A stretch of DNA of 64,000 nt from Hyphomonadaceae bacterium. Lineage in GTDB: Bacteria > Pseudomonadota > Alphaproteobacteria > Caulobacterales > Aquidulcibacteraceae. Shown piece by piece: positions 7,342-34,275 of the stretch; positions within the stretch are counted from its first letter, which is position 1, and each line of letters begins with the position of its first letter. The notes under the pieces were generated by a model, which was not told the origin of the DNA, ran no database searches, and worked only from the letters and a program-made list of their open reading frames with translations. The DNA lies in the NCBI GenBank assembly GCA_016791425.1, contig JAEUMQ010000014.1:1-64000 (forward strand). Direction: 5' to 3'. The position numbers and the translations under genes are program-made.

Positions 7342-9096
7342 AGCCGATATGGCGCGTTCACGCGCTGCCTCCAAGTTTCGGAGCCAACATTCGGCGGCGA
7401 TCAGGGCATAGAGACCGTCCGCCGCCATTCCGTCCTGCAACCAACCGCCCGCGAGCGCGCGTTCAAGCGCGTCGGCATCGACGACGCCGTCGTGAACGAG
7501 GCGCCCACCGCACAAAACGTCTCGAATCCACGACTCGTTGGCCGCAAGGACGGCCGCAAAGTAGCGAGTGGTTTCGCCCTTGGTGACGCGGCGCGCGACA
7601 TCGGGAGGAACAATATCAGCGAAGGCCGCGCGTGCGAGCGATCGTTCCTTGCCGCCCGCTGTCATCACATAGGGTGGAATGCGCAGACAAGTTTCGAAGA
7701 TCGGCTGCGATAGCAGCAACGGGTGCGTGCGGCCGCCGCCGGGGAGAGCGCCTTCATCAAAATAGCTGAGCGCTTGCAGCAACTGATGAATTCTAAGCAC
7801 GCGCGCCGGCGCTTCCCAACGCAGTTTGGCAAGCCACGCATGGTTGGCCAGCGCCTCAGCATCGTCCCCTGCCGGTTTGAGAGCGCCCATGACATTGGAA
7901 CGAGGCCGAACCGGCGGCTTGAGCCGCGCTGCGCCGACGACCATGGCGGCCAACACGTCCCAGACCGGCTGTCCGGTAAGCCGCGCGGTGTCGAGCGCGA
8001 TCTCCACGAGCGCACCGGGACGCACGCCATCGCAAAGCGCATCGGCCGCGATCGAAGGCGTGCGGCTTCGCTGGAAGATGTGGTCTCCGCCTTGACCGGA
8101 GGTGACAAGGCTTGCGCCAAGGTCGTCGTAGAATGGTATCAGGTCGCGATTGCCCAGAGTGAGCAGCGTAAGTGTCGGCTTGGCCGTAAGCGGCGCATTC
8201 AAGCACAGCGCATAATTTACCCGCGTCGGATCGAAGCGCAGCTCCTTGAGTTCTGCTTCATTTGCGGCTGCGACCGCGCGCGCGTGATCGCGTTCGTCAC
8301 CCTCGGGCGCGCCTTCCCAATATTCCGTGACGCAGATGACCTCCGCCTCGGTGTTGCGGCGTAGCAATCCCAGCATGACCGATGAATCGAAACCGCCTGA
8401 AAGTCGGAGCGCGATCCGCTGATGCGATCGGCCCCGCGCCTTTACGGTGGCGTCCGCCGCACTGCGCAACGCCTCTTTGCCTTCGCGCCAGTCAAGCGGC
8501 CTGTTGGCCCTCGCGAAATCCCGTGGCGTCCAAGCCGCCTCAATCCCCCATCCTTGCCGCGGATAGGTCGCGCACTCTCCGGGCGCCAGCTCTTCAACTC
8601 CCTCAAGCCCCGTTCGCCGGCCAACATGCGGAGGGTATCGCAAGAATGCGCGAATGAACCCGAGGTCGGCGCGGGTTTCGGGCGCTAGCCGAAGGAAGTC
8701 TTCGGCATCCGAGAAGAAGATCCGCACGCCATTGATCTCGGAAAAGAAGCAAGAACGCGCGCCGCTTGGATCGCGAAGCACGCGAACGATGTCAAAGCCG
8801 CGATCGATCAGGATGGCGACATAAGCGCCCCATCGCTCAGCGATCCATGTTGGCGTGGGATCGATGCACGACTCACATGGCGGCGACGGATCAGGCTCGC
8901 GCCCGAAACGTTCGCCGAGAACGAACCCCATACCATGAGGTAACATCTCGATGGGCCCAGCTCCGTGATGCAGCAGCACAAGGCCACGCCAGTCGATGAG
9001 AGACGTCGCGCCCTCAGAGAGGCGTTCAGAAAGCGCCCGCGCCGCGCGTGTCTGCTCGCGCTCTCCTGGCGTCCAGCGGAAACCAACGAACGCCAT
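7297..9096 (-). CDS. Lasso peptide cyclase (asparagine synthetase-like, C protein)
   Basis: A 599-residue asparagine-synthetase B-like protein. Residues 1-200 correspond to the glutamine-amidotransferase domain but begin MAFVGFRWT with no Cys2 nucleophile, so it cannot hydrolyse glutamine in the usual way. The PP-loop SGGFDSS lies at 233-239 in the C-terminal ATP-binding domain. In lasso systems this enzyme adenylates the ring-acceptor side chain (here probably Glu9 of the core) and forms the macrolactam with Gly1. It starts three bases after the B-protein stop, so B and C are co-expressed. The last 45 bases overlap the convergent isopeptidase gene. Confidence 0.92.
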   Translation of the reverse strand: MAFVGFRWTPGEREQTRAARALSERLSEGATSLIDWRGLVLLHHGAGPIEMLPHGMGFVLGERFGREPDPSPPCESCIDPTPTWIAERWGAYVAILIDRGFDIVRVLRDPSGARSCFFSEINGVRIFFSDAEDFLRLAPETRADLGFIRAFLRYPPHVGRRTGLEGVEELAPGECATYPRQGWGIEAAWTPRDFARANRPLDWREGKEALRSAADATVKARGRSHQRIALRLSGGFDSSVMLGLLRRNTEAEVICVTEYWEGAPEGDERDHARAVAAANEAELKELRFDPTRVNYALCLNAPLTAKPTLTLLTLGNRDLIPFYDDLGASLVTSGQGGDHIFQRSRTPSIAADALCDGVRPGALVEIALDTARLTGQPVWDVLAAMVVGAARLKPPVRPRSNVMGALKPAGDDAEALANHAWLAKLRWEAPARVLRIHQLLQALSYFDEGALPGGGRTHPLLLSQPIFETCLRIPPYVMTAGGKERSLARAAFADIVPPDVARRVTKGETTRYFAAVLAANESWIRDVLCGGRLVHDGVVDADALERALAGGWLQDGMAADGLYALIAAECWLRNLEAARERAISALAASSAVPQSAPPL

Positions 9097-9099: not shown

Positions 9100-9744
9100 T
9101 CACACCCAGGCTATCGGCTTGAAAGACGCACAATGATCAGAACTGTCGCCGGCGAGCCTGCCTTCCCATTCGACCCAGCAGTGAGCGGCGAAGGGCGCCG
9201 TGCGCACGCCAAATACGAGGTCTGGTCTTAGCCCGCGCATCACCATGAAGCGAAAAAGCGCCAAGGCGTCAAAGAGACACACGCGCCGGCGCGGAAACCA
9301 GGGCCGGAATGCCTCGAACACACCAATCAAATGCTGCGCATCCGCCACTGGCATCACGGCGCGCGACTTCAGCTCCTCCAAGCGCGCCAGTGTCAGATCC
9401 AATCTGCGCCGTGCCAGCGTGCCTGCGGTCCACCAGCACGCGGACGCGCACAGGCCATACTCAAAAAGCGATGCACGAGAATGGTCAGTGGGGAGAAGCT
9501 TCTGCTCAGGCGCGGCTGTACGGGATTCGTGGGGCGCAGGACACGCCCGCGCTTGCTCAATCAAGCCCAGCTCAATGAGCCGCGCGCCGCTCCCCTGCGC
9601 ACATTCCGTCTCTGCCAATCCAGCGATGGCGGGAGCTGTCCGTAACGGCACGCTCCAATAGCGGTCGAGGCGCAAGTCGAGAAAGACGATATAGCCGCCG
9701 TCCGTGCATGCGCGAACGTGCGGGCTCAATTGGTAGGTTGTCAT
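9100..9744 (-). CDS. Lasso peptide B protein: fused leader-binding (RRE) and leader peptidase
   Basis: A 214-residue protein of the usual proteobacterial fused length. Residues about 1-85 form the PqqD-like RiPP recognition element that grips the precursor leader; residues about 90-214 form a transglutaminase-like cysteine protease with visible Cys156 (RRRVCLFDAL), His188 (FAAHCWVEW) and Asp200 (RLAGDS). It removes the leader so that Gly1 is freed for cyclisation. The gene starts 48 bases after the second precursor gene and ends three bases before the cyclase gene. Confidence 0.92.
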   Translation of the reverse strand: MTTYQLSPHVRACTDGGYIVFLDLRLDRYWSVPLRTAPAIAGLAETECAQGSGARLIELGLIEQARACPAPHESRTAAPEQKLLPTDHSRASLFEYGLCASACWWTAGTLARRRLDLTLARLEELKSRAVMPVADAQHLIGVFEAFRPWFPRRRVCLFDALALFRFMVMRGLRPDLVFGVRTAPFAAHCWVEWEGRLAGDSSDHCASFKPIAWV

Positions 9745-9792: not shown

Positions 9793-9924
9793 TCACATGT
9801 CGCGCATGTGCGGCGACACGAAGTTCTCTTTGAAAATCGGATCCCAAACACCGAGCGTGACTTCGCTCGCGGGCCCCAGGTCGGTCACGGTCTCGTCGTG
9901 ATCCAGGTCTTCGTGGGCTTCCAT
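9793..9924 (-). CDS. Lasso peptide precursor 2 (43 aa)
   Basis: A 43-codon gene, MEAHEDLDHDETVTDLG then PASEVTL, followed by the predicted core GVWDPIFKENFVSPHMRDM. The leader carries the proteobacterial lasso pattern DLGxASxxT with Thr at position -2 relative to the core. Gly1 and Glu9 of the core fit a nine-residue macrolactam, leaving a 10-residue loop and tail (NFVSPHMRDM). AGGAGC precedes the ATG by a normal spacing. Adjacent B, C and isopeptidase genes and a paralogous precursor 63 bases upstream make the call strong. Processing site, ring size and threading are inferred, not shown. Confidence 0.9.
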   Translation of the reverse strand: MEAHEDLDHDETVTDLGPASEVTLGVWDPIFKENFVSPHMRDM

Positions 9925-9987: not shown

Positions 9988-10113
9988 TCAGAAGTCGCGC
10001 GCTTGCGGCGTGACGAGGTTTTCCTTCTTCACGGGATCGTAGATCCCTTGCGTCACTTCCGTCGCAGCGCCGAGGTCCACGATGTCTTCTTGGCGTTCGA
10101 TATCTTCACGCAT
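9988..10113 (-). CDS. Lasso peptide precursor 1 (41 aa)
   Basis: A 41-codon gene: MREDIERQEDIVDLG then AATEVTQ, and the predicted core GIYDPVKKENLVTPQARDF. Leader motif DLGAATEVT places Thr at -2. The core is 19 residues, as in precursor 2, with shared positions G1, D4, P5, K8, E9, N10, V12, P14, R17 and D18, so the two are recent paralogs with variable positions 2, 3, 6, 7, 11 and the tail. A GGAGAG ribosome-binding site lies seven bases or so before the ATG. It is the first gene of the A1-A2-B-C minus-strand unit, downstream of a 108-base promoter region. Confidence 0.9.
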   Translation of the reverse strand: MREDIERQEDIVDLGAATEVTQGIYDPVKKENLVTPQARDF

Positions 10114-10221
10114 TGCACTCTCCATTCACCGCATGACCTTGCGGCGCGTAGAGTGTGCTGCGGCCCAGCAAGATTTGGGGGACAATCTGGTTAAAGATTT
10201 CGTTGGAAGTTTTAAGACGCT
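10114..10221 (-). promoter_or_regulatory. Promoter region of the lasso precursor operon
   Basis: The 108 bases between the GntR stop and the first precursor hold the only non-coding space where a lasso-operon promoter can sit. On the minus strand the 10-mer CGAAATCTTT occurs at 10193-10202 and is repeated upstream of luxR1 (13331-13340). Just downstream, AGATTGTCCCCCAAATCT has five-base inverted ends. No clear -35/-10 pair is visible. The site may bind the GntR protein encoded just upstream or an autoinducer-responsive regulator; both are inference. Confidence 0.4.
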
Positions 10222-10833
10222 TCAACCGCCATTATTGGGCATCGCCTTGGCGTGCGCCGCACTTCTTATCACGGCGCAATGACTGATGCGCCGGTCAAAA
10301 TATCTGCGCAGCTTATTAGCGAGTACAGCGCCGCCGCGATCAAGTGAGGCGACGATCTGATTCAACTCCTCATGAGCGCCCGGCAGCGCGTCAGTTTCAG
10401 CGCGCAGCGCCTGCTGAAGACGCTCATCGGCGGAGCGGCCAGCACGCCGGGCCTCGGTGTTGGCGTTGCGATCGATATGGCCCATCATCGCCAAATAGGC
10501 GGCGGCATAGTCAGTGTCCGGCGACAGCGCCGAGGGGGATTCCGGCGCATATGATTGCAACGCCCACTTCGTCAGGTGTTGACGCCACTGATAAAGCTCA
10601 CGCAGCTCTCGCTCCGACCAAAACGCCACTTGATATATCCGCGACGTATTCAGTCTGACGAGGCGCTCTGCGGCCAGTATGGCCAACGCATACCGAACCG
10701 GCGTGGCACTCACGCCAAACTGAGAAGCAAGCTTGTCAATGTCGAGACGTTGCAGGGTCACAAGCTCGCCCGACAAGATTGCTTGTTTTATCTCCTGATA
10801 GACGCGTTCGCCGGGACGCGGATCAAGCGCCAT
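10222..10833 (-). CDS. GntR-family transcriptional regulator
   Basis: About 203 residues: an N-terminal winged helix (VYQEIKQAILSG ... LDIDKLASQFGVSATPVRYALAILAAERLVRL) and an all-helical C-terminal effector domain resembling FCD. The frame opens at 10860, but ATG at 10833 is preferred: it follows GGGGTGGGG and gives a normal short tail before the helix-turn-helix. It overlaps the end of the dioxygenase gene by 11 bases, so it is translationally coupled to luxI and the dioxygenase. Position immediately upstream of the precursors suggests it controls them; the effector is unknown. Confidence 0.82.
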   Translation of the reverse strand: MALDPRPGERVYQEIKQAILSGELVTLQRLDIDKLASQFGVSATPVRYALAILAAERLVRLNTSRIYQVAFWSERELRELYQWRQHLTKWALQSYAPESPSALSPDTDYAAAYLAMMGHIDRNANTEARRAGRSADERLQQALRAETDALPGAHEELNQIVASLDRGGAVLANKLRRYFDRRISHCAVIRSAAHAKAMPNNGG

Positions 10834-11722
10834 CCCCACCCCGTGTGTCGCTCGCGGCATAGTGCGCTTTGAGCTGCGCCTCGATCTCCGGTGTCAGCGC
10901 ATCAACGTGCGGCATGAACCCACGCCGCTCCCGCAGGTAGTTGATCGGATCCTGCCCTTCCCAGCCGCCAAGATTGGGCCGGTGAATGCGATAGCCGATG
11001 AGCTGTTGGAGATCTGTCGGAAAGGAAGCTGCGACCTCGCGCGGATAAGCCAGAAATTGATTCTCATACGTCTTGAGCCATCCCAAGCAGTAACTGACGA
11101 TGATTCCGGTGCGTGGGAGCGCGGTGAGGTTCTGGCCTGCGCCGTGCGTGAGCGAGCCCAGGAAGAGGAGCGCCGAGCCTGCCTTCATGGCGCCGGGCAC
11201 ACTTTCGGCGGGATCGACACCGCGATCCAGCGCCGCGCGGTGGCTACCCTTCCAAAGCCGCGTCGCGCCATTTTCCTCGGTGAAGTCGCTCACGGCCCAC
11301 ATGACGTTCAAGAGCCAGTGTTTGCCGCCGGTGGGCCACGACCACATCTCTTCATCGCGGTGAGGCGCTTGGGGCCGCTCTTGACCATGGACCCGCACGG
11401 CTTGCGTCAAATTGAGCTGGATGCAGTCGCAGTTCGGTTTGAGCAATGCCTCCGCGATCGCCAAAATGTAGGGGTCCATGACCAAATCGCGCGCGCTTGG
11501 CGCCTTCGAGAGAAGCCCGCCGACGCGCGTCGTATTCCAACCGTAGAAATCGCCTTCGCACCTGGGCGTCGCTTCGAGCCAAGGCTCGAGCTCCTCCGCG
11601 AGCCTGCGGCAGCGGCGCTCGTCAAGCCGGTTTTCAAGTACGACAAATCCGTCGCGCTCCAGGATCGACAAATGATCCTGATCTGCCGGCGAAAACGGCA
11701 CGACGTTCGAAGCTTTCATCAT
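10823..11722 (-). CDS. Phytanoyl-CoA dioxygenase (PhyH)-like Fe(II)/2-oxoglutarate oxygenase
   Basis: A 299-residue double-stranded beta-helix oxygenase. The metal ligands are visible as His121-x-Asp123 (APHRDEEMW) and His193 (LTHGAGQN), with Arg204 a likely 2-oxoglutarate anchor. The ATG at 11722 follows AAGGAG at good spacing, and that ribosome-binding site overlaps the luxI stop, so it is coupled to luxI. It might hydroxylate the lasso core or a signal-related small molecule; the family is broad and the substrate cannot be told from sequence. Confidence 0.85.
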   Translation of the reverse strand: MMKASNVVPFSPADQDHLSILERDGFVVLENRLDERRCRRLAEELEPWLEATPRCEGDFYGWNTTRVGGLLSKAPSARDLVMDPYILAIAEALLKPNCDCIQLNLTQAVRVHGQERPQAPHRDEEMWSWPTGGKHWLLNVMWAVSDFTEENGATRLWKGSHRAALDRGVDPAESVPGAMKAGSALLFLGSLTHGAGQNLTALPRTGIIVSYCLGWLKTYENQFLAYPREVAASFPTDLQQLIGYRIHRPNLGGWEGQDPINYLRERRGFMPHVDALTPEIEAQLKAHYAASDTRGGDGA

Positions 11723-11734: not shown

Positions 11735-12364
11735 TCAGGCCGCCTGAGTGACATCGCCGCCGAGAAATCGGGTGACCGGCGCCTTGATGCCGTTGCGCTG
11801 GCGCACGCGCTTCAAGCCTTGCTGATCGATCGACGCGACAAAAGCCGTGAGACGATCTCCGCCGACACGGCGCGATCGGCCTAGCGGCGCCACATCCCAG
11901 CCCGCCCTTGCCGCGAGCGGCGTGAGCGCTGCGCTCGCAACAAAGGTGACGCGCTCGGTGCCGAAGATAAGCGCAGTCTCCATGATGCCGGCGATGATGC
12001 GGGCGAGCAGATCGTGGCGCGGCTGGCCGTGTGCCGTATCGGGTGCAGGACAAAACCGCGTCGCTTCCCACACATCGGGCCCTGCGGGCGGGTCGCCATC
12101 GCACAGGAAGCGGAAGTGATCGGCCAAAAGATGTGGTCGATCGGTCTGCAGGAGGCGCGCTGAGCCCATAACCGGGGCGCGCGGCGCCGCCGCTTCGATA
12201 AGATAGATCGCCTCCGGGCAATCGTACGAGTCGATCTCGATGCCGGCGCTTTCCTCCAGGCGCCATTTCATCTGATCGATGAATACCTCTTTGCGCTGGC
12301 GATGCATCTCCATCAGCGCGTGGTGATAATGGCGCCGGTTTTCAGCGGTGATGATGTGGATCAT
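11735..12364 (-). CDS. luxI: Acyl-homoserine-lactone synthase (LuxI family)
   Basis: A 209-residue LuxI-type enzyme that makes acyl-homoserine lactone from S-adenosylmethionine and an acyl donor. Conserved features are the N-terminal RxxVF segment (HRQRKEVFIDQMKWRL), the acidic pair in IEIDSYDCPEAIYLI, GSARLLQT and the WEATRFC block. ATG at 12364 (MIHIIT) is chosen over the upstream ATG at 12421, because the family begins here, GGAG lies just before it, and the upstream start would sit on the lux-box palindrome. It heads a minus-strand unit with the dioxygenase and GntR genes. Confidence 0.92.
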   Translation of the reverse strand: MIHIITAENRRHYHHALMEMHRQRKEVFIDQMKWRLEESAGIEIDSYDCPEAIYLIEAAAPRAPVMGSARLLQTDRPHLLADHFRFLCDGDPPAGPDVWEATRFCPAPDTAHGQPRHDLLARIIAGIMETALIFGTERVTFVASAALTPLAARAGWDVAPLGRSRRVGGDRLTAFVASIDQQGLKRVRQRNGIKAPVTRFLGGDVTQAA

Positions 12365-12420: not shown

Positions 12421-12442
12421 AATAGGCACGGACGTGCCTATT
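12421..12442 (-). promoter_or_regulatory. Candidate lux box (perfect 10+2+10 palindrome)
   Basis: AATAGGCACG-GA-CGTGCCTATT reads as a perfect 10-base inverted repeat with a two-base spacer, 57 bases upstream of the luxI start. Length, symmetry and position match LuxR-type operators that autoinduce luxI. On the minus strand a TTGCGA just after it could act as a -35. A second shorter palindrome, GATCACGTGATC at 12453-12464, lies between it and the luxR1 stop. Confidence 0.78.
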
Positions 12443-12467: not shown

Positions 12468-13193
12468 TCACACATCTTCGAGCCTGATCTGCCCGTCTTT
12501 GAGCGCGCGCACGAACGCCTGCACGCGGCTTGCGACGCCATATTTGTGCATCGCGCGGCGGACGATGTTGTGCACCGTGTGCTCGCTAAGCCCCAGGATC
12601 ACGGCCATGTCGCCATCGTCCTTGCCTTGGCCCAACAGCTGTACACATTCACGCTCTCGTGGGCTTAAGACGGGCTTCGCAGGTATCCCCGCAAGACGCA
12701 GTCGCCGCGCGCATTCGTGTGCATAGACGCCGTACCAAGTGGCTTTCTGCGCATTGAGCGGATCAACACCATCTGGCCCAATGACCAGCGAGCAAGAGGC
12801 CGGCAATGCGTCGGGCGCATGGATGGGAATAGTGATCCCATCGACGAGGCCTGCTTCGGCGGCTTCGTTCAATATCCGAACTTGATCGGCCGCAAGGCCG
12901 GCGCGAAAGACGCGGTCGCTCCACTGAAATGGGAGAGTCTGACGTCTGGCCCGCCAATAGACTGGATCGCGCTTCGCATAGTTCTGGTCACTGAAGCGCT
13001 GCAGCCATGGAAGCGGATAGTCCACCATCATCACCGCTTCCGCGGGCGGGCGCAGCGGATCGACATGAGAGGCGCATGCGGCATGTGTGAAGCCGAGTTC
13101 GCGGATTTCGCGCATGAACGCGGCATGAAGTTCTTCAACGCTCGTGGCGCGATCGCAGACTTCTGCGAACGCCCAATTGATCCGGGCTTGCAT
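12468..13193 (-). CDS. luxR: LuxR-family quorum-sensing regulator 1
   Basis: A 241-residue LuxR protein. The autoinducer-binding domain (about 15-165) keeps the signature Tyr, Asp-Pro and Trp residues (NYAKRDPVYWRA ... PFQWSD) and GLVDGITIPIH; the C-terminal GerE helix-turn-helix starts at LSPRERECVQLL. Both features favour a true AHL receptor. It lies just upstream of luxI on the same strand with the lux box between them, so it is the likely cognate receptor. Confidence 0.9.
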   Translation of the reverse strand: MQARINWAFAEVCDRATSVEELHAAFMREIRELGFTHAACASHVDPLRPPAEAVMMVDYPLPWLQRFSDQNYAKRDPVYWRARRQTLPFQWSDRVFRAGLAADQVRILNEAAEAGLVDGITIPIHAPDALPASCSLVIGPDGVDPLNAQKATWYGVYAHECARRLRLAGIPAKPVLSPRERECVQLLGQGKDDGDMAVILGLSEHTVHNIVRRAMHKYGVASRVQAFVRALKDGQIRLEDV

Positions 13194-13356: not shown

Positions 13357-14091
13357 TCAAGCGATCGGTTTGATCTGGCCAGAACTGATTGCACGCGCCA
13401 CGGCCTGAATGCGTGTGCTCGCACCCAAGCGTACCCGCGCGCGCTCAATATGGCGCCGGACCGTGGCGACGCTAAGCCCCAGCCCTTGCGCAATCTCAGC
13501 ATCGAGGAGACCACTGGCGCAAAGCTCAAGGCATTGCCGCTCGCGCCGGTGTAGCTCTGCGAAACGGGGCGCCGATGCGATGCACATCTCTGCCGCGCGG
13601 TGATGCACGACCACATTGATCAATTTGCCGGCGGAATACACTTCTTCCGGCATGTCCGGCTCGCTCGTCACCAAGGAGGCGGATGCGCGACGCGGAAGAA
13701 TCGAGGCCAGCTTATGGGTGCGCCCATGGCGGAGCCCGAATTCGCGCGCCTCATTGAGGATACGGCGCTGACGCCAAGACAATGGCTGAAGAAACTCGGG
13801 GTCAGTCCAAACGAAGTCCCCACTCCCGGCCTCCGCCGCGCGATAGACCGGATCCACGAGGTGGTAACGCTGCGCTGAAAAGTGGGCGATCCATTCCTCG
13901 GGGTAGTTCTGGAATACATACGCCGCGTGATCGGGCCGCAACGGGTCGGCATGGACGCCGAGAGCCACGAAGGTGAATCCCATCTCAACCAAACGCTCTC
14001 GCCAAATACTTTCCAGTTCGAGCAACGTCGCCGCCGCATCGCACGCGGCGGCGAAGGCGATCATCTCGGCGCTGATGAGGTTTTCGCGCAT
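13357..14091 (-). CDS. LuxR-family quorum-sensing regulator 2
   Basis: A 244-residue LuxR protein beginning MRENLISAEM (ATG at 14091; the frame runs upstream to 14292 but the extra residues are not LuxR-like). It keeps RYHLVDPVYRA and the FVWTDP tryptophan of the ligand pocket, and a GerE domain from HRRERQCLELCASG. The segment after EFGLRHGR (THKL) departs from the usual GxTxPxH pattern, so ligand choice may differ from LuxR1. It is divergent from the traG-trb conjugation operon and may control it. Confidence 0.88.
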   Translation of the reverse strand: MRENLISAEMIAFAAACDAAATLLELESIWRERLVEMGFTFVALGVHADPLRPDHAAYVFQNYPEEWIAHFSAQRYHLVDPVYRAAEAGSGDFVWTDPEFLQPLSWRQRRILNEAREFGLRHGRTHKLASILPRRASASLVTSEPDMPEEVYSAGKLINVVVHHRAAEMCIASAPRFAELHRRERQCLELCASGLLDAEIAQGLGLSVATVRRHIERARVRLGASTRIQAVARAISSGQIKPIA

Positions 14092-14179
14092 GCAACTCGA
14101 AGTGTAGCCGATTTTGAACGCCACATCACCTGGCAAGCGCCGCCTTAATTGAGCGCTTAACACCAATGCGCGTGATGAA

Positions 14180-14193
14180 ACTCGCACGCGAGT
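14180..14193. promoter_or_regulatory. Palindrome in the luxR2-traG divergent region
   Basis: ACTCGC-AC-GCGAGT is a six-base perfect inverted repeat with a two-base centre, lying between the divergent luxR2 and traG starts. It has the geometry of a regulator site but not the sequence of the luxI lux box, and it is short for random exclusion in GC-rich DNA. Confidence 0.3.
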
Positions 14194-14271
14194 CGTCGCG
14201 GGTCGCGCGGCATGCCTCGATAGAGTTGCAACATGTGGCGCCATTAGGAATTGGGCGAGACGCTTCTGCTC

Positions 14272-16305
14272 ATGTGGGAGCGGACGTTTCATATGCGATT
14301 GGTGTGGGGCGGCATCGCCGCCGCTTCAATCAGCGTGCTTGCGTGCTTCGCCGCGACCCAGACATGCGCACGGACGTTCAACTACCAAGCAGCGCTCGGC
14401 AGGCCAGCCTTTGTATTCGGCTCGACGCCGATTTACGCACCCTTCTCGGTTCTGACCTGGTCGGAGCGCTGGAGCGCCAACTACCCGCGCGCCTTTGCGT
14501 TGCCGAAACTGTTCGTCTTCGTCGGTTTCCTATCGAGCGCGATGCTTGTGCTGCTCGCGCTGAAATCGCCCCATCCCAGCCAGCGGCCGTTCGGCGCAAA
14601 GAGCTGGGGCGGCCGCAAGGATGCACGCGAGGCCGGCCTCTTCGCTGAAGGCGGCATCATCATCGGCAAATTCGATGGCGAGATTCTCGCCTACGATGGC
14701 CCACATCACCTCTTGCTGACTGGCGGCACGCGCTCGGGCAAGACACGCGGCAGCGTCATCCCGACCTTGCTCGCCTGCCCGCATTCGATCCTCGTCTTGG
14801 ACTTGAAGGGCGAACTTCATTCCGGCGACACGCGCGTGGATTTTCCCGGCACAGCGGGTTGGCGCGCAAGGCTCGGCCCGGTGATCCGTTTTGCACCGAC
14901 CGAGGCAATCTCGGATCGCCTCAATCTCCTGGATACGATCCGGCCAGGCGCTCAAGAGGTGCGAGACGTTCAAAATCTCGTGGAGCTCATCGCCGACCCA
15001 TACGGCGACGGGCGTTTTCAGGAGTTTTGGGACCGCGCCGCCAAGCAAATCCTCGCCGGGCTGATCATTCACGTCGTGTACGCTGAGCCCCTTCCGAGCA
15101 AGACACTGGCGCGCGTATTCGAGTTGCTCGCCCGCTTCGACGACACCGTAAAGCTGATGGAGGCGACGCTCCATCGCAAGAACGAAGAAAGCGGCGAGCC
15201 TGAAACGCACCCCGAAGTAAAGCGCGCCGCCCACTCTTACGCCGCCTATCACGAGAAGTTACGCGCCGGCATCAAGGCGACAGCCGAGAGCTATCTCGGC
15301 CTCTTCGCCGATCCGCTCGTGCGCCAGAACACGGCGACATCGACCTTCCGCATTTCAGACCTCATGTGCGCCGACGAGCCGGTGACGCTTTATCTGTGCT
15401 GGCCGCCCAACGACGCCAAGCGAGTCAAACCGCTCATTCGCCTCGTCTTCGGTGCAGTCCTCCGCGTGCTGATGGAGCATCAAGAACGCGCCGCCGACGG
15501 ACGTGAAAAGAAGCGCAACCTTCTTCTTTTGCTCGACGAGTTTCCCCAACTCGGCAAGCTCGACGTGTTCGAGCAATCGATGGGCGCGATGGCCGGCTAT
15601 GGCCTCAAAGCCTATCTCGTCACCCAGTCACTGCATCAGGTCACGCAAGCCTATGGCCGCTATCACACGATTCTAGATAATTGCCAGATCGTCACGAGCT
15701 TTGCCGCAACCGATGTTGAAACAGCCGAGACGATCTCCAAGCTTGCCGGCGACATCTTTGAGATGCGTCCGCAAGAAACCTGGTCGGGCAAGCGCCAATT
15801 CTTCGGGCTTGACCACCGCGCAATCACGTATCGAGAAGAACGCCGCCCGCTGCTGCTATCGTCTGAGGTGCGCCGGCTCAGCGAAGGCGAGGAACTGATC
15901 TTCGTCACCGGCGCAAAGCCGTTACGCGCCCAGAAACTGCGTTACGACGAGGAGCCGATCTTTCGAACGCGGCTGCTGCCCGCCCCTGCGGAGGCGCGCC
16001 GGCGCACACTGCCTTCACCTTGGACCGGCATCTCGTCACTCGGCTTCGCGCAACGCCGAGCGCCCGACGCACCGCCAGGACGCGATGGCGCAATTGTTCG
16101 CGCCCTCACACAGAAAACGCCGCTGCGTTCGCGCCCAGCACCGGAACAACAACAGGGCGACCTCCTTTCTGCACTGGAAGCGAACCAACCAGATCAGAGC
16201 GGCGAGGCTGACCCCTCATCCGCCGCGCAAGCCGCGCCTCCAGCGTCCTCACGCTTTGCGTTGCGTCCGTCTTCCGCCGATTCCGCCAGCGAGGCCGGCT
16301 CATGA
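14272..16305 (+). CDS. traG: Type IV secretion coupling protein (TraG/VirD4)
   Basis: About 677 residues. Two N-terminal membrane segments (LVWGGIAAASISVLACFAAT and LFVFVGFLSSAMLVLLALKS) are followed by the Walker A LTGGTRSGKTRGSV, the VLDLKGEL block and Walker B LLLLDEFPQLGKLD. It delivers relaxase-DNA to the trb channel. The C-terminal 80 residues are Pro/Ala-rich and probably disordered. Starts at 14251 (TTG), 14272 or 14293 are all possible; 14272 is a compromise since no strong Shine-Dalgarno is seen. It overlaps the next gene by four bases and is first in the traG-trb operon. Confidence 0.93.
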   Translation: MWERTFHMRLVWGGIAAASISVLACFAATQTCARTFNYQAALGRPAFVFGSTPIYAPFSVLTWSERWSANYPRAFALPKLFVFVGFLSSAMLVLLALKSPHPSQRPFGAKSWGGRKDAREAGLFAEGGIIIGKFDGEILAYDGPHHLLLTGGTRSGKTRGSVIPTLLACPHSILVLDLKGELHSGDTRVDFPGTAGWRARLGPVIRFAPTEAISDRLNLLDTIRPGAQEVRDVQNLVELIADPYGDGRFQEFWDRAAKQILAGLIIHVVYAEPLPSKTLARVFELLARFDDTVKLMEATLHRKNEESGEPETHPEVKRAAHSYAAYHEKLRAGIKATAESYLGLFADPLVRQNTATSTFRISDLMCADEPVTLYLCWPPNDAKRVKPLIRLVFGAVLRVLMEHQERAADGREKKRNLLLLLDEFPQLGKLDVFEQSMGAMAGYGLKAYLVTQSLHQVTQAYGRYHTILDNCQIVTSFAATDVETAETISKLAGDIFEMRPQETWSGKRQFFGLDHRAITYREERRPLLLSSEVRRLSEGEELIFVTGAKPLRAQKLRYDEEPIFRTRLLPAPAEARRRTLPSPWTGISSLGFAQRRAPDAPPGRDGAIVRALTQKTPLRSRPAPEQQQGDLLSALEANQPDQSGEADPSSAAQAAPPASSRFALRPSSADSASEAGS

Positions 16306-16751
16306 CGGCCAGACCCAAAAAGAAGATCACGATCTATCTTGAGCACGATCTCGCGCGAGCGCTGGACTTGGAGGCTCGTCTCCGCGGACTGCCGACGACG
16401 CGCGCGGCGGCAGATGCGCTGCGCCGCATCTTCCTCGATGGAAAGGATGAAGCGGTCGCTGACACTGTGAAGATGCGTCTCGACCGCGTTGAAAAGCGCG
16501 AAGTAGTGCGCGAGCGCGAAATCGCCATCGTCAAGGAGACGCTGCTTCTCTTCATCCGAGTGTGGCTGGAGCACACGCCGCCGCCACGGGAGGAAACGCT
16601 CGACGCCACCAACGCTGTCGCCGAGCGGCGCTTTCAGTCCTTCCTTGAACTTCTCGCCGAGAGCATGGCGCCCGGTCAGACGCTCTTTCCCTACGCGGCC
16701 CACGGCCGCCGAGCAGACGCCGGCGCGCCCATGAATGGAGCGGCGGAATGA
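16302..16751 (+). CDS. Ribbon-helix-helix (CopG-like) protein of the conjugation operon
   Basis: A 149-residue protein with an N-terminal KKKITIYLEHDLARALDLEA strand-helix-helix typical of RHH DNA-binding proteins, then a coiled, charged segment (VEKREVVREREIAIVKE). The same gene commonly sits between traG and trbB in alphaproteobacterial conjugative modules. It overlaps both neighbours by four bases (ATGA). It could bind oriT-proximal DNA or autoregulate the operon. Confidence 0.78.
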   Translation: MTARPKKKITIYLEHDLARALDLEARLRGLPTTRAAADALRRIFLDGKDEAVADTVKMRLDRVEKREVVREREIAIVKETLLLFIRVWLEHTPPPREETLDATNAVAERRFQSFLELLAESMAPGQTLFPYAAHGRRADAGAPMNGAAE

Positions 16752-17689
16752 ATGCGATCTCCCCCTCTCAGGAGCGCATCGTAGCCGAGCGGCGCCTTGC
16801 ATCCCTGACAGGCGCTCTCGGTCCGGCGTTGCAGGCCGCTTTGGCCGATGACGCCGTCGTCGAAGTGCTGATCAATTGCGATGGCCTAATGCGCGTCGAT
16901 CGCGTCGGCCGCGGCATCGAGGTGACAGACGCACGCCTTAGCGTCGCTGAGCGCGAAACCGCGATCCGCCTCTTAGCGGCCGAAGCATTCGAAACAGTGA
17001 CTGAAGACCATCCCTTCCTCGCCGCGACCCTCCCCGGCTCCGGCGCGCGGGTGCAAGCGCTCATCGCGCCCATCGTCCGCGCGCCGGTGTTGGCGATCAG
17101 GAAACGCCCCAAGCTCATCTACACGCTCGACGACTACGTTCGTGCTGGCATCGCCTCGTCCGCACAAGCGGCAAAGTTGCGTCAAGCCATCATCTCGCGG
17201 CGCAACATCGTGGTCGCCGGCGGCACAGGCTCAGGCAAGACGACGCTCCTCAATGCGTTGCTCGCAGAGCCCGACTTCTCCGCTTCGCGCCTGCTCATCT
17301 TGGAAGACACGGCGGAACTGCAGTGCGCCGGCGCCGATGTGGTGCAACTCCTCACCAAGCGCACGCATCCCCAGGTCTCGATGCGCGATCTTGTGCAAAT
17401 GACCTTACGCCTGCGTCCCGATCGGATCGTCGTGGGCGAAGTGCGCGACGGCGCAGCACTCGAAGTCTTGAAAGCGTGGAACACCGGCCACCCCGGCGGG
17501 CTCCTAACCATCCACGCCAATTCCGCCGCTGACGCGCTGCTGCGGCTGGAAGATCTCTGCCTCGAAACCGGCGCTGCGCGTCCCGAGCGGCTGATCGCGT
17601 CCGCCGTCGACACGATCGTCTTCATGTCCCGCACGGCGGAAGGCCGCCGCATCGAGGAAATCGTCAGCTGCAAGGGAGACCAGCGATGA
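16748..17689 (+). CDS. trbB: Conjugal transfer ATPase TrbB (VirB11 family)
   Basis: A 313-residue VirB11-type hexameric ATPase. It shows Walker A VAGGTGSGKTTLLNALL, the Asp box ILEDTAELQC, Walker B RPDRIVVGEVRDGAALEVL and the His box GHPGGLLTIHANSA. Located on the cytoplasmic face, it powers pilus assembly and substrate transfer. It is coupled to genes on both sides by four-base overlaps. Confidence 0.95.
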   Translation: MNAISPSQERIVAERRLASLTGALGPALQAALADDAVVEVLINCDGLMRVDRVGRGIEVTDARLSVAERETAIRLLAAEAFETVTEDHPFLAATLPGSGARVQALIAPIVRAPVLAIRKRPKLIYTLDDYVRAGIASSAQAAKLRQAIISRRNIVVAGGTGSGKTTLLNALLAEPDFSASRLLILEDTAELQCAGADVVQLLTKRTHPQVSMRDLVQMTLRLRPDRIVVGEVRDGAALEVLKAWNTGHPGGLLTIHANSAADALLRLEDLCLETGAARPERLIASAVDTIVFMSRTAEGRRIEEIVSCKGDQR

Positions 17690-18006
17690 AAACATCACGC
17701 TTCAAAGTGGTCGTGACGGGTGCGGCGATCGTGCTTGCGCTTTCCACAGTTGAACCAGCGTTCGCCTCCGGCTCCGGCATGCCGTGGGAGGCGCCGCTGC
17801 AGCAAGTGGTGGACTCGATTACCGGGCCTGTCGCGCGCGCAGCGGCCGTCATCGCCATCATCATCTCGGGTGTCGGCATCATTTTTGGCGAAGGCGGCGG
17901 CGGCATCAGGAAGCTCGCATTCGTGGGCCTCGGCATCGCCATCATGTTCGCGGCCGTTTCATTCTTCCTCGACTTCTTCGGTTTTGCCGGCGGGGCGGTG
18001 CTCTGA
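17686..18006 (+). CDS. trbC: Conjugal transfer pilin TrbC (VirB2 family)
   Basis: A 106-residue pilin: signal peptide cut near PAFASGSG, then two hydrophobic helices (AAAVIAIIISGVGIIFGEGG and LAFVGLGIAIMFAAVSFFLD) with the glycine-rich hinge usual in VirB2/TrbC. It starts within the trbB stop and ends at the trbD start. Confidence 0.92.
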   Translation: MKTSRFKVVVTGAAIVLALSTVEPAFASGSGMPWEAPLQQVVDSITGPVARAAAVIAIIISGVGIIFGEGGGGIRKLAFVGLGIAIMFAAVSFFLDFFGFAGGAVL

Positions 18007-18269
18007 TGCTTGATGAACCCGACGGCTATCGAATCTCGCTGCGCACATCGTTGACGCGTCCGCTCCTCATTGCAGGCGTGCCGCGCACATTCGCGATCAT
18101 GAATGCAACGGTCGCTGCCGCCATTGCTTTTGGTTTGCAACAGCCGCTCATCGGCATCCCGCTTTGGGCAATCGTTCAAGGCGCCGGCGCCTACGGATCA
18201 TCGCGCGATCCCTGGTTCTTGGACACCTGGCCGCGCGCCATGGCCAAGCCTTCCTATTTTAGCGCGTGA
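18006..18269 (+). CDS. trbD: Conjugal transfer protein TrbD (VirB3 family)
   Basis: An 87-residue membrane protein starting at the ATG that overlaps the last base of the trbC stop (TGATG). The motif LTRPLLIAGVPRTFAIMNAT and the paired membrane helix then WFLDTWPRAMAKPSYFSA match the VirB3/TrbD family. It belongs to the inner-membrane complex with TrbE and is too short to be reported by length-based gene lists unless the start is chosen carefully. Confidence 0.92.
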   Translation: MLDEPDGYRISLRTSLTRPLLIAGVPRTFAIMNATVAAAIAFGLQQPLIGIPLWAIVQGAGAYGSSRDPWFLDTWPRAMAKPSYFSA

Positions 18270-18276
18270 GCCGGCG

Positions 18277-20748
18277 ATGATGGATCTTCGCCCATATCGC
18301 CAGACAGAGGCCCGCCTAGCCGATTGGTTGCCCTGGGCCGGACTCGTCGCCGATGGCGTCGTCATCAATAAGGACGGCGCCTTCCAGCGTACGCTTACAT
18401 TTCGCGGACCCGATCTCGATTCCTCGACGCCGTCTGAATTGATGGGCGCGAGCAGCAGGCTCGACAACGCACTGAAGCGCTTCGGGTCCGGATGGTGCCT
18501 GCACGTGGAAGCGCGCCGTACGGAGACCAAAGAATATCCCATCAGCGACTGGCCGGACGCTCTCTCATGGCTCATTGACCAGGAACGCGCACAAGACTTT
18601 GCCGCAGCCGGCGGACGCTTCGAGAGTGTGTATTATTTCACCCTGTCGTGGCTCCCACCCAGCGAAACCTCGGGAAGGTTGGAAGCCGCTCTGTTCGACA
18701 ATGGCGGCCATTCCTCCACGGTCGGGATCGACTACCGAGCCTGCCTCGCAAGCTTCATTGAGGAGACGCAATCGTTCAAAGCGCTGCTTGACCTCGTCAT
18801 GAACGAAGTGCGCTTTCTCGATGGCGCGGAGACACTCACTTATCTGCATTCATGTATCTCGGACCGGCCGCATCCGATTGCCGTGCCGCCGACGCCGTTT
18901 CATATCGATGAGCTCATTTCGGATTCCGCTCTTGTTGGCGGCATCGCGCCACAACTCGGCGAACTTCACCTCAAGGTGCTGTCGGTCCGCACTTATGTGA
19001 GCGAAACCGAGCCCGGCCTTCTCGATGCGCTCAACCGGTTGGGCGTGCCCTATCGCTGGGTGACGCGGGTCATGCCGCTCGACCGCGAAGAAGCACGGAG
19101 CGAGATCGAGAAAATCCGCAAGCGCTGGTTCTCCAAGCGCAAAGGCATTCTGACGTTGCTGCGCGAAGCGCTCTACCGCGAAGAAGCAACGCTCCTCGAC
19201 AACGACGCGACAGCGCAAGCCGAAGACGCCGATCTGGCCTTGCAGGAAGTGAACGGCGAAGCCGCAGGCGCGGCGTATGTAACGCTGACCATAACCGTCG
19301 CCGATGCAAACGAGGCCACAGCATTCGAGCGCATTCGCCAAATTCGCCAGGTCGCCGACGGCATGGGCTTTGTCACCGCGCTCGAAACCATCAACGCGGT
19401 AGAGGCCTGGCTCGGTTCGTTGCCCGGCCAGCCCTACGCCGATCTTAGGCGCCCGATCCTGTTGACCCCGTCGCTTGCCCATCTGTTGCCGCTCTCGGCC
19501 GTTTGGGCGGGCGAGCACCAAAACAAGCACTTGAACGGCCCGCCGCTCCTCGTTGCCGCAACGGATGGGGCGACGCCCTTCCGCCTCCATCTGCATCACG
19601 GCGATGTCGGCCACACTTTGATCGTTGGACCGACCGGCGCCGGCAAATCGGTTCTCCTCGGTCTCCTCGCTGCGCAGTGGCGCCGCTATGCGCACGCGCA
19701 AGTCTTCATGCTCGACGCTGGGCGCTCAAGCCGGGCGCTCGTGCTGGGATTGAGCGGCGCATTCGTCGACCTGATGCAAGACGAAGCGCAAGCATCGATC
19801 GCGCTTCAGCCGCTGGCGCATATCGATGACGAAACCGAACGGGCATGGGCGCGCGATTGGCTGATCGCGCTTCTAGAGCGCGCCAACATCGCCGTCGATC
19901 CGGCGCGGCGCGAAGAAATTTGGGCCGCACTCTCGGTGCTTGGTGAAAGACCGGCAAACGAGCGAACCCTCTCGGTTCTGTCGGCGCTCATCCAGGACGG
20001 CGATATCCGCACAGCGCTTCAGCCTTTTACGCATGCCGGGCCCTGGGGTCGCTTGATCGACGCGGACGTAAGCCATCTGACCGAGCACGACGTACAGGCC
20101 TTTGAGATGGGCGAACTCATGCCCCGCGCCGATGCGTTGGCGGCTGTGTTGCCGTGTCTCGTTCACGCGCTCGAAGCGCGCTTCGACGGACGCCCCACCC
20201 TGCTCATTCTCGATGAAGCGTGGGCCTATCTGCGCGATGGCGCATTCGCCAATCAGATTCAGGCTTGGCTGAAGACGTTGCGCAAAAAGAACGTCGCTGT
20301 GGTGTTCGCCACTCAAGAACTGGCCGATGTCGAGGCGAGCACAATCGCCGCCACCATCCTTGAAGCCTGCCCGACCCGCATCTTCTTGGCCAACGATCGC
20401 GCGCGCGAGCCGCGTACGCGCGCATTTTACGAAGGGCTCGGCCTCAACACACGCCAGATCGCTTTGATCGGCGAAGCCGCGCCTAAGCGGGACTACTATG
20501 TGCAGACACGTAGCGGCGCCAGACTCATAGACTTGACGCTCGGGCCCGCAGCGCTCGCCTTTCTGGGCGCCTCCACGCCTCAAGACCAGCGCGCCATCGA
20601 TGCCGTGTGCGCGGAGGCCGCCCCCTCCGGCTTCGCCGCGGCTTGGCTCGAACACAAGAACCTCGCCGATGCGGCGCTCGCTCTGCAGCGCTTCACGGCC
20701 GCGACTTCACCGCACCTGCAACGCCAGACTGAGGGAGCGCTCACATGA
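18277..20748 (+). CDS. trbE: Conjugal transfer ATPase TrbE (VirB4 family)
   Basis: An 823-residue VirB4-type ATPase. The N-terminal half has the family's RADGA-like region; Walker A is LIVGPTGAGKSVLLGLLAAQ and Walker B is PTLLILDEAWAYLRDGAF, followed by the LRKKNVAVVFATQEL segment. The ATG at 18277 (MMDLRPYRQ) is taken because the frame upstream overlaps trbD. It ends in an ATGA overlap with trbJ. Confidence 0.95.
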   Translation: MMDLRPYRQTEARLADWLPWAGLVADGVVINKDGAFQRTLTFRGPDLDSSTPSELMGASSRLDNALKRFGSGWCLHVEARRTETKEYPISDWPDALSWLIDQERAQDFAAAGGRFESVYYFTLSWLPPSETSGRLEAALFDNGGHSSTVGIDYRACLASFIEETQSFKALLDLVMNEVRFLDGAETLTYLHSCISDRPHPIAVPPTPFHIDELISDSALVGGIAPQLGELHLKVLSVRTYVSETEPGLLDALNRLGVPYRWVTRVMPLDREEARSEIEKIRKRWFSKRKGILTLLREALYREEATLLDNDATAQAEDADLALQEVNGEAAGAAYVTLTITVADANEATAFERIRQIRQVADGMGFVTALETINAVEAWLGSLPGQPYADLRRPILLTPSLAHLLPLSAVWAGEHQNKHLNGPPLLVAATDGATPFRLHLHHGDVGHTLIVGPTGAGKSVLLGLLAAQWRRYAHAQVFMLDAGRSSRALVLGLSGAFVDLMQDEAQASIALQPLAHIDDETERAWARDWLIALLERANIAVDPARREEIWAALSVLGERPANERTLSVLSALIQDGDIRTALQPFTHAGPWGRLIDADVSHLTEHDVQAFEMGELMPRADALAAVLPCLVHALEARFDGRPTLLILDEAWAYLRDGAFANQIQAWLKTLRKKNVAVVFATQELADVEASTIAATILEACPTRIFLANDRAREPRTRAFYEGLGLNTRQIALIGEAAPKRDYYVQTRSGARLIDLTLGPAALAFLGASTPQDQRAIDAVCAEAAPSGFAAAWLEHKNLADAALALQRFTAATSPHLQRQTEGALT

Positions 20749-21458
20749 CCCGCAAATCACGTCTTTTCATTGCCACTTGCGCGCTCGCGCTCGCGCTGGG
20801 CGGCGCACCCGCTCGCGCCCAATGGGTTGTGATTGATCCTGCCAATCTCGCGCAAAGCATCACGCAAGTGACGCACATGATCTCGCAGATCAACAACCAG
20901 ATCGAACAAATCCGACAACAGGCGCAGATGCTTGAGAGCCTGGGTCTCGACCTGTCGCCCGAATTGTCGGCCTCGATCGGGCAAGTCCGCAATTTGCTGC
21001 GCGAAGCGGAAGGGCTACAGCAGAACGCGGAAACCATCGCAAACGATATGCGCGAGCTCTATCCGGAAGATGTCTCCAACTTCGATCTTGATAGGTTGCT
21101 CAACCAGTCCGACCGCTGGCTGGAGGAAAGCCGCAACAGCGTCGAGGCGCTCATGACGATCAGCGCGTCGGCCAGCAGCGACGGGCTGGAAGACGCCGAC
21201 AGCGCGATGTCACGAGCGCTCCAGGCAAGCTCGCGTGCGGAGGGGCAGACATCGGCCGAACAGGCGACGGCGCAAGCGATCGGCGTTCTCTCCTCACAGG
21301 TCGCGCAGCTCCAGGCGCTGCAAGCCGCTCAAGCGCGCGCGCTTGCCTCCGAACGCATCGAGCAGATCGCGCGCGAGGAGCGTGCGCGTGAAGTGCGCCG
21401 TCGCGCTTTTCCCACTGAAGTTTCGAGCGATGCGCCGCCCGCGCAACCGCGCTTCTGA
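20745..21458 (+). CDS. trbJ: Conjugal transfer protein TrbJ (VirB5-like)
   Basis: A 237-residue periplasmic protein with signal peptide ending ARAQW. It is rich in long amphipathic helices (ITQVTHMISQINNQIEQIRQ), as in TrbJ/VirB5, which joins the pilus tip and mating-pair assembly. It lies between trbE and trbL, the usual order. No trbK entry-exclusion lipoprotein follows it. Confidence 0.9.
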   Translation: MTRKSRLFIATCALALALGGAPARAQWVVIDPANLAQSITQVTHMISQINNQIEQIRQQAQMLESLGLDLSPELSASIGQVRNLLREAEGLQQNAETIANDMRELYPEDVSNFDLDRLLNQSDRWLEESRNSVEALMTISASASSDGLEDADSAMSRALQASSRAEGQTSAEQATAQAIGVLSSQVAQLQALQAAQARALASERIEQIAREERAREVRRRAFPTEVSSDAPPAQPRF

Positions 21459-21463: not shown

Positions 21464-22432
21464 ATGAATACCGGCAGCGTCAATTCCTTTCTGGATCGCT
21501 TTCTCGGTCTCGCTGACCGCGGATTCGGTTTGATCCAAGGCGATGTCGCGTTCGTGCTGAACGCGCTCATCGTCATCTCGGTCACGCTCGCCGGCGCTAT
21601 GTGGGCGCTCAAAGCCGAGGCGCCGATCGCGCCCTTTTTTCGCAAGGTGCTGTTCGTCGGCCTCTTCGCGTTTCTCGTAAACAATTGGAACGCGGTCGCC
21701 GGCGCGATCAACCAATCCGGCGCGGTGCTCGGATTGAAGGCCGGCGGCTCGGGCATGAGCCTCGCCCAACTTCACGACCCCGCCCGCGTCGCAGTTCAAG
21801 GCAAGGAGCTTTTCGGCCGCGTCATGGAAATGGGCGACGGCATGAACATCTTCACTGACTTCCTGACACTCGCCACCATCCTGCTCTCGGGCGTCATCAT
21901 TCTCATCGCCTTCTTCGTGCTGGCGCTGCAGATCTTCGTTCAACTCATCGCCTTCAAGCTTGGCTCGCTCGCAGCATTCGTCGCCCTGCCCTGGGGCGTG
22001 TTCTCAGGCACCGCTTGGGCGGCAGAGCGGCCGCTAGGCTGGGTCGCAAGCTCGGCGATCCGGCTCTTCCTCCTGGCTTTTGTCGCGAGCGTCGCCCTCA
22101 GCTTCGTTGCCGAATTGCCGCAAACGATGACGCTCGCCAATGGCGGCGCGCTCGACGTGCTGCTCTTCGGCCTCACTATTCTTGCGCTTTCGTTCCTTGC
22201 GCCAGCGCTTGCTAGCGAAGTGATGCAAGGCAATCCCAGCCTCTCGGCCGCGCAACCCATTCAAGGCGCCATGGCTGGCGCAGGCATGGTGGTTGGCGCC
22301 GCCGTCACGACGAAGATCATGACCTCCGGCCGCGGCGGTTCGCGTGGCCGCCACGCGCGAGGACGCGGCGCGACCGGCGGCGCGCGCCCGCGGCCCAACT
22401 ACGCGGCCATGCAACCGAAGCAGAAGTCCTGA
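21464..22432 (+). CDS. trbL: Conjugal transfer protein TrbL (VirB6 family)
   Basis: A 322-residue polytopic inner-membrane protein with about six to eight hydrophobic segments (IVISVTLAGAMWALK, FRKVLFVGLFAFLVNNW, LSGVIILIAFFVLALQIFVQ, LLFGLTILALSFLAPALASE) and a basic glycine-rich tail (RGGSRGRHARGRG). TrbL/VirB6 forms part of the inner-membrane channel. Confidence 0.92.
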   Translation: MNTGSVNSFLDRFLGLADRGFGLIQGDVAFVLNALIVISVTLAGAMWALKAEAPIAPFFRKVLFVGLFAFLVNNWNAVAGAINQSGAVLGLKAGGSGMSLAQLHDPARVAVQGKELFGRVMEMGDGMNIFTDFLTLATILLSGVIILIAFFVLALQIFVQLIAFKLGSLAAFVALPWGVFSGTAWAAERPLGWVASSAIRLFLLAFVASVALSFVAELPQTMTLANGGALDVLLFGLTILALSFLAPALASEVMQGNPSLSAAQPIQGAMAGAGMVVGAAVTTKIMTSGRGGSRGRHARGRGATGGARPRPNYAAMQPKQKS

Positions 22433-22450: not shown

Positions 22451-23161
22451 ATGAACTTTCCTTTCCGGCGTCCTCCGCGCGCCTACGCAGCCGAGGCGGC
22501 CGACACGCCTTTCGCGCGCGCCCAACAAGCATGGGATTTGCGCATGGGCTCCGCCGTGCAAGCAGCCGTTACCTGGCGTTGGCTTGCGTTCGGCCTTGGT
22601 CTGCTCGCTATCGTGCTTGCAGCCGGTCTCACCTTCGTAGCGCTGCAGAAGCGCACCTTCGTTCATGTGGTGGAGGTAAGCCCGCAAGGCCGCGTGCTCT
22701 CGGTTGAACCGCTGTCTGGCCGCTACACACCGACCGACGCGCAAGTCAGCTACTTCCTCGGTCATTTCGTCCGGCTAGTGCGTGAGATTCCAACCGATGG
22801 CGTGGTGCTGCGCCAGAACTGGTTCGCGGCCTACCGCTTCCTGACGCCGCAGGCGTCGCAGCAACTCAACCAGATCGCGCGTGAAGACGATCCGTTCGCG
22901 CGCTTAGGCACGAGTGCGCGGACCGCCGTCATCACATCGGTGGTGCAACGCTCAGAGGCGACATGGCAGGTAAGCTGGATAGAGGCGACGCACGGCGCAG
23001 ATGCGCGCTCGGCTCAGAGTTTCACCGGGCTCTTCACCGTACGCTTCGACCGGCCGCGCAACGCCGATGCGCTGATGCACAATCCGCTGGGACTCTTCAT
23101 CACCGAATTTTCAATGTCCCCTGAAACCCCGGCCTCATCTTATTCACGGGTGCAGCCATGA
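22451..23161 (+). CDS. trbF: Conjugal transfer protein TrbF (VirB8 family)
   Basis: A 236-residue bitopic protein: short cytoplasmic N terminus, one membrane helix (WLAFGLGLLAIVLAAGLTFV), then a periplasmic VirB8 domain (VRLVREIPTDGVVLRQNWF). It scaffolds the secretion channel. GGAGAAGG precedes the ATG. It overlaps trbG by four bases. Confidence 0.93.
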   Translation: MNFPFRRPPRAYAAEAADTPFARAQQAWDLRMGSAVQAAVTWRWLAFGLGLLAIVLAAGLTFVALQKRTFVHVVEVSPQGRVLSVEPLSGRYTPTDAQVSYFLGHFVRLVREIPTDGVVLRQNWFAAYRFLTPQASQQLNQIAREDDPFARLGTSARTAVITSVVQRSEATWQVSWIEATHGADARSAQSFTGLFTVRFDRPRNADALMHNPLGLFITEFSMSPETPASSYSRVQP

Positions 23162-25118: not shown

Positions 25119-25453
25119 AGAAACCGCGCGCCAAAAAGGAGCCCCTGCCGCAACCCGATCTCTTTGGCGAGGGCGCCCAATTCTCGCAGGCGCCCAAGCA
25201 AACATCGTCGCGCGCACCGCCTGCGCCAAGCTCGCGCCGTGGGCGCGTCGTTACCCCTCCTCCTCTTCTGCTCAACGTGCGCGAAGCCGCCGCGCGCCTC
25301 GGCCTTTCCAAATCGACCTTGGACAAGATGCGCTGCGCCGGCAAAGGGCCCCGATACGTCAAATCGACCGACAAGGCGGTTCGATACGACCCAGCCGACC
25401 TCGACGCCTGGATCGCCGCGCGACGCAGCAAGAATGCCACCGGGGTCGACTAG
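25115..25453 (+). CDS. Helix-turn-helix (excisionase-like) protein at the end of the trb operon
   Basis: A 112-residue protein starting at a GTG that overlaps the trbI stop. The first 50 residues are basic and disordered; the C-terminal half (LNVREAAARLGLSKSTLDKM ... YVKSTDKAVRYDPADLDAW) is an excisionase/MerR-type winged helix. The overlap shows it is made with the secretion genes. It could regulate the operon or be a directionality factor. The stop is followed by a perfect GCCGATCGATCGGC palindrome (25454-25467). Confidence 0.75.
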   Translation: MKKPRAKKEPLPQPDLFGEGAQFSQAPKQTSSRAPPAPSSRRGRVVTPPPLLLNVREAAARLGLSKSTLDKMRCAGKGPRYVKSTDKAVRYDPADLDAWIAARRSKNATGVD

Positions 25454-34272: not shown

Positions 34273-34275
34273 GTC

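Follow-up and report, generated by a model that had tools for sequence, protein, structure and literature searches.

In this study, we describe a conserved composite segment of roughly 23-26 kb, in which two quorum sensing (QS) receptors and one AHL synthase stand beside both a lasso peptide cluster and the transfer genes traG and trb. The arrangement of luxR2, traG and lasso genes is real and recurs across related genomes. Our preferred reading, to which we give a probability of about one half, is that density couples lasso production and transfer via two receptors and two operators; that is, one chemical signal may steer both the conjugation genes and the lasso cluster, each half through a receptor of its own. 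A quorum-controlled peptide linked to conjugation would join bacterial competition with gene transfer.

Gene arrangement

The stretch analysed (the window) comprises positions 1-64,000 of the 172-kb contig C4 of genome G000 (Table 1). The named relatives are a Terricaulis MAG and Hyphomonadaceae MAGs. Outward from traG, the minus strand carries luxR2, luxR1, luxI, phyH, gntR, two lasso precursor genes and the lasso B and C genes, and the TonB receptor and Atxe2-type isopeptidase genes are convergent to this row. The original prediction placed a LuxR gene divergent from traG-trb and a lasso cluster beyond it, and this is borne out: luxR2 and traG point away from each other, traG is followed by trbBCDEJLFGI, and the Atxe2 isopeptidase, B2 protein, cyclase and precursor with Thr(-2) make up an isopeptidase-type lasso cluster. 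LuxR2 carries both domains of a LuxR-type AHL receptor, each scoring above its cut-off. A strong hairpin between lasso A2 and B (9754-9780, minus strand; -30.4 kcal/mol, z -3.95) perhaps sets precursor-to-enzyme ratios.

Table 1. Features of the QS-lasso and transfer genes in the window.
Feature	Position	Strand	Basis or remark
TonB-dependent receptor	2336..5317	+	TonB models, none above own cut-off; conserved place
Atxe2-type lasso isopeptidase	5311..7341	+	NF033523 577 bits (cut-off 400)
Lasso C cyclase, Asn-synthase-like	7297..9096	-	PF00733
Lasso B protein (B2)	9100..9744	-	NF033537 69 bits (cut-off 33)
Lasso precursor A2, predicted core GVWDPIFKENFVSPHMRDM	9793..9924	-	
Lasso precursor A1, predicted core GIYDPVKKENLVTPQARDF	9988..10125	-	Leader Thr at -2, Gly1/Glu9
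gntR regulator	10222..10860	-	PF00392
phyH, phytanoyl-CoA dioxygenase family	10823..11722	-	PF05721
luxI	11735..12364	-	PF00765 78 bits; start ATG
Lux box AATAGGCACG-GA-CGTGCCTATT	12421..12442		At luxI promoter
luxR1, luxI-linked LuxR	12468..13193	-	Pfam domains; clade in LuxR tree
luxR2, traG-linked LuxR regulator, 244 aa	13357..14091	-	Pfam Autoind_bind 83.5 bits, GerE 42.5 bits
Divergent luxR2-traG gap, 180 bases	14092..14271		Alignment of nine loci
Gap element CCAA-N5-GTGA-N-GA-N3-TCGC	14163..14185	+	Candidate LuxR2 operator
Palindrome ACTCGC-AC-GCGAGT	14180..14193		Arms of 6, centre of 2
Second conserved gap motif GTTGCAA	14225..14231	+	9/9 loci
traG, VirD4-type coupling protein	14272..16305	+	PF02534 (T4SS-DNA_transf) 274.9 bits
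149-aa ORF at copG place	16302..16751	+	Position; no Pfam match
trbB	16748..17689	+	PF00437
trbC	17686..18006	+	PF04956
ORF with trbD (VirB3-like)	17784..18269	+	PF05101 28.7 bits, residues 86-149; true start probably within ORF
trbE ORF	18103..20748	+	PF03135, PF19044; true start probably further in
trbJ	20745..21458	+	PF13605, weak PF07996
trbL	21464..22432	+	PF04610
trbF	22451..23161	+	PF04335
trbG	23158..23988	+	PF03524
trbI	23985..25118	+	PF03743
HTH_17 protein, end of block	25115..25453	+	Conserved in G077, G001, G065, G034, G023

Conservation of the QS-traG adjacency

A TraG search of 60 genomes of the family returned 64 places at E<=1e-100, and 56 loci were mapped, namely the window and 55 of the 63 places outside it; the eight left out were partial or weak, and one of them (G076:C1, locus L244 below) adjoins LuxR2. 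A LuxR gene is divergent from traG at 16 of the 56 loci and runs in the same direction at two. At eight of the loci with such a LuxR gene (the window, L066, L067, L068, L070, L071, L072 and L073), a luxI is also present, no more than about 3 kb from traG; lasso genes are present at seven of these, and the eighth, L070, ends in phyH at a contig end. In the traG tree all eight fall into one clade with L069 and L074 (100/100), and the luxI tree requires two origins for them. A third arrangement occurs on the Novosphingobium plasmid PP1Y Lpl (L231, NC_015579.1, 14000-40000), where a luxR-luxI-phyH-gntR unit with a benenodin-family lasso cluster is situated between traG and trb.

A LuxI search of the same 60 genomes found the luxR1-luxI-phyH-gntR-lasso unit at 25 of the 30 luxI loci of >=56% identity; four of the remaining five are broken by contig ends (L070, L187, L192, L200), and L197 has no detected lasso genes. 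None of the luxI loci with less than 56% identity, 16 out of 46, showed lasso genes. The unit is thus far wider than its traG link. Among 398 genomes of the order, LuxI matches at E<=1e-40 come from just 24, all in this family, and a distant luxI-phyH pair occurs together with lasso genes on the Sphingomonadaceae plasmids PP1Y Lpl, ES2-1 p2 and UT26S pCHQ1. The predicted lasso precursors vary among QS-lasso loci, and near-identical core pairs are found in L068 and L193, whose LuxI proteins are 91% and 64% identical to that of the window; alike in their cores and unlike in their LuxI heads, these two loci indicate that different QS heads exchange their lasso payload in the manner of a cassette. 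Nearly identical precursor pairs under different QS heads are also seen in L072, L191 and L196.

Since QS-lasso units are common cargo in the family, the adjacency could be that of cargo at a hot spot: LuxR2 would regulate traG, and the adjacent QS-lasso unit would be independent cargo with no functional coupling. We consider this unlikely. The exchange of lasso payloads between QS heads agrees with it, as does the absence of traG within 60 kb on the same contig for 13 of the 19 non-adjacent QS-lasso units; however, six of the 19 are within 60 kb of traG where about 1.6 would be expected, an expectation that does not allow for contig ends or shared ancestry. (L197, without lasso genes, is one of the six; three luxI units on short contigs were omitted from the count; and a G068 unit, labelled lasso though its contig ends in phyH, belongs to the adjacent group and thus falls outside this test.) Independent cargo is also harder to reconcile with two luxI lineages lying beside one traG clade in the same orientation, and with the third, differently arranged case on the PP1Y plasmid. 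The own genome holds a second QS-lasso unit (L121, G000:C16:155000-174000), which has a separate lux box and lies about 26 kb from a traG; this traG shares the surrounding C16 stretch with an integrase and a relaxase homologue.

LuxR2 and its linkage to traG

All ten matches to a LuxR2 profile at E<=1e-97 among 398 genomes adjoin a traG. In the LuxR tree, from which 9 of 59 LuxR rows were omitted, LuxR2 clusters with five other LuxRs divergent from traG (98/92) and is separate from the luxI-linked LuxR1, a grouping that is not certain because long branches meet at this join. On linkage and phylogeny, LuxR2 is best placed with the transfer genes and not with the lasso cluster. The association is not uniform: L072 and L073 are without LuxR2 and have a LuxR1-type gene as the traG neighbour, L069, from the traG clade of the eight loci, lacks a LuxR within 9 kb, and L100 carries a stop inside luxR2. 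A search of the plasmid collection for a close relative of LuxR2 gave 19 records, all under 60% identity (best ~33%), and hence no close plasmid relative.

It is possible, though in our estimate rather improbable, that LuxR2 acts as a solo regulator. It might control traG in response to a foreign AHL or some other ligand, or it might be a repressor that AHL blocks or that needs no ligand. No luxI accompanies four of the ten LuxR2-traG loci, namely L074, L100 and L104 (~9 kb covered) and L244 (~1.5 kb covered), a pattern that would also suit independent cargo; genome G032 has LuxR2 and no LuxI match at all. On the other hand, luxI lies within about 2 kb of traG at the other six. The AHL pocket points both ways: compared with the pocket of RhlR, the Tyr is replaced by Phe in LuxR2, but the Trp, Asp-Pro, Trp and Gly positions are retained, and the luxI-paired LuxR1 shows the same retained residues and the same Phe.

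Separate candidate operators

The lux box before luxI is strong and conserved. Its GTCAA anchor is present at all 30 luxI loci of >=56% identity and at least 7 of its 11 palindromic pairs at 22 of them, and its arms co-vary between loci; in the own genome it occurs at two sites only, both at close luxI genes. Of the Sphingomonadaceae plasmids, ES2-1 has a strong palindrome before luxI, and PP1Y and UT26 have none. A lux-box matrix built from 13 training boxes scores 21.1-29.6 bits at luxI in all eight QS-traG loci, where the values for L072 and L073 are not independent because their boxes are in the training set and the other six loci lie outside it. The best site in the traG gap reaches at most 4.2 bits in all eight, and a shared operator is therefore unsupported. 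A lux box at lasA1 was likewise sought, and the best matrix scores there are negative.

These scores bear directly on a scheme in which a single operator, possibly the 14-base palindrome, would let LuxR1 control both lasso genes and traG. Adjacency, together with the LuxR1-type gene beside traG in L072 and L073, speaks for it, but against the gulf between luxI and gap scores we regard it as very improbable. The palindrome itself, noted in the original prediction, is present in the divergent region, but its role as an operator is rejected: shuffling the 180-base gap yields an equally good one in 11% of cases, and matches to its arms with up to two mismatches are fewer across the window than expected (4 observed, 8.6 expected). 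The seven nearest loci retain 4 to 6 of its 6 arm pairs, but it is not kept in the distant loci L100 and L104 and is missing in L244.

Rather, the best candidate for a LuxR2 operator is the element CCAA-N5-GTGA-N-GA-N3-TCGC, present in nine of nine LuxR2 loci and, within 336,510 bases searched on both strands, only in the gap. L244, held out from motif definition, carries both this element and GTTGCAA, bringing the total to 10/10. The difference between this element and the lux box at luxI would suit independent cargo as well. The conserved element gives a defined candidate operator, and the lux box conserved before lasso operons names a candidate inducer for a class of clusters of which many are silent in the laboratory.

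The five sister LuxR-traG loci (L077, L078, L079, L090, L118) have TTGGTGA-N4-TCACCAA in the same divergent gap and no luxI in the stretch; this motif occurs at six places in the 60 genomes, five of them these gaps (control 0). The LuxRs of these loci are probably solo regulators of conjugation, as judged from gap motif and gene content.

A proposed single signal through two receptors

The original prediction that one signal might control lasso production and conjugation survives in part. Given the conserved adjacency, the traG-linked LuxR2 and a lasso operon behind a lux-boxed luxI promoter, QS could plausibly control both halves, whereas a common operator is not supported; if one signal governs lasso genes and traG, it would act through two receptors. 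In our preferred reading, LuxR1 with AHL would bind the lux box and turn on luxI-phyH-gntR, and the lasso genes would be switched on by read-through or via GntR, as we infer from gene order, the conserved box and operon-like spacing. LuxR2 would be a TraR-like regulator that belongs to the transfer module, is passed on together with traG and acts on the divergent gap to set traG-trb and its own expression, a role suggested by its traG adjacency in 10/10 cases and the conserved gap elements. The AHL of the neighbouring LuxI would most likely feed LuxR2 too.

A more speculative extension, which we hold to be doubtful, is a self-promoting package in which one AHL, two receptors and separate operators bring the T4SS into step with the release of an interchangeable lasso peptide; the lasso payload would be swapped, and the QS head would remain in place along with the transfer genes. 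If true, donors would affect neighbouring cells and pass the element on at one and the same density, and the isopeptidase would serve immunity or recycling. Isopeptidase-type lasso peptides have no known role.

Transfer genes and mobility

The conjugation operon had been called complete, and it is so for the mating-pair genes and coupling protein: traG and trbBCDEJLFGI, which constitute a Trb-type T4SS, are all present, the trbE ORF beginning within the trbD-holding one. Searches of contig C4 and of related stretches found neither an integrase nor a relaxase, a divergent relaxase having possibly been overlooked, and the block is hence not classed as an ICE. Relaxase homologues are found on C8, C15 and C16 of the own genome and in G065, and are absent from the window and from the G077, G023, G001, G034 and G073 stretches. 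These absences fit a T4SS that no longer moves its own DNA (an immobile remnant, a helper in trans or a system with another export job), which would be compatible with the other readings and which we think improbable: the trb genes all look intact, a divergent relaxase could have escaped the search, and other genomes carry the same block in different contexts. G001 matches the window over 23.3 kb at 83% and G077 over 23.7 kb at 80%, and in both the flanks beside the block differ. DNA transfer by this T4SS is a prediction.

To the right of the block is a tRNA gene, tRNA-Met in the window and G023 and tRNA-Gly in G077. Repeats at tRNA-Met were considered as att sites and rejected, the tRNA ends having no second copy in the window. 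Between the T4SS and tRNA-Met, positions 28274-45579 hold genes for ion transport and stress (TerB, TerC, Na+/H+ antiporters, bicarbonate transporter). At L074 (G032), a deletion remnant, traG continues directly into sequence of trbI; identity to the window is 95% for its traG and only 70% for its LuxR2.

Relation to known systems

In Ti plasmids, TraR and TraI control tra-trb, and a luxI-type gene heads trb. The original prediction of the same gene families in another order is right as to order, since luxI here heads phyH-gntR-lasso, but a Ti-type identity fails: the window proteins are far below the TraR, TraI and TraG-Ti cut-offs (42.1 bits against 250 for the TraR model NF010444; TraG 86.7 bits against 686.2 for TraG-Ti TIGR02767). 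The nearest model for the window traG is the IncP-type NF010450 (471.1 bits, also under its cut-off of 674). ICEMlSymR7A and ICEMcSym1271 are reported to be under TraR/TraI control, and the two TraRs of ICEMcSym1271 share one AHL, a precedent for two receptors on one signal (PMC5882170). Like the window, these elements and the Ti plasmid encode an AHL synthase together with LuxR-type receptors, but in the window the receptor is divergent from traG and luxI does not head trb.

The luxR-luxI-phyH loci of Sphingomonadaceae have the same gene order as the window (PMC3704786 and PMC4288048), and phyH was there proposed as possibly part of a QS-regulated operon (PMC3704786); word searches of both articles found neither "lasso" nor "asparagine synthase". 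Atxe2/benenodin-type clusters on alphaproteobacterial plasmids share with the window A-B-C plus isopeptidase, TonB receptor, FecR, sigma factor and GntR, but in the window and at 25 of the 30 close luxI loci luxR1-luxI-phyH stands at the head; no annotated luxI is present in the stretches around the pSfKp5.2, pDB-1 and pASDW145_2 lasso clusters. A literature search on lasso peptides with QS or conjugative elements, in which subscription literature was thinly covered, found no report of such linkage, and the association of luxR-luxI-phyH with gntR, lasso genes and traG is, relative to the literature searched, new. LuxR genes also occur near virB-type T4SS genes on Sphingobium pTomMM15c and a Methylocystis plasmid (L129, L130).
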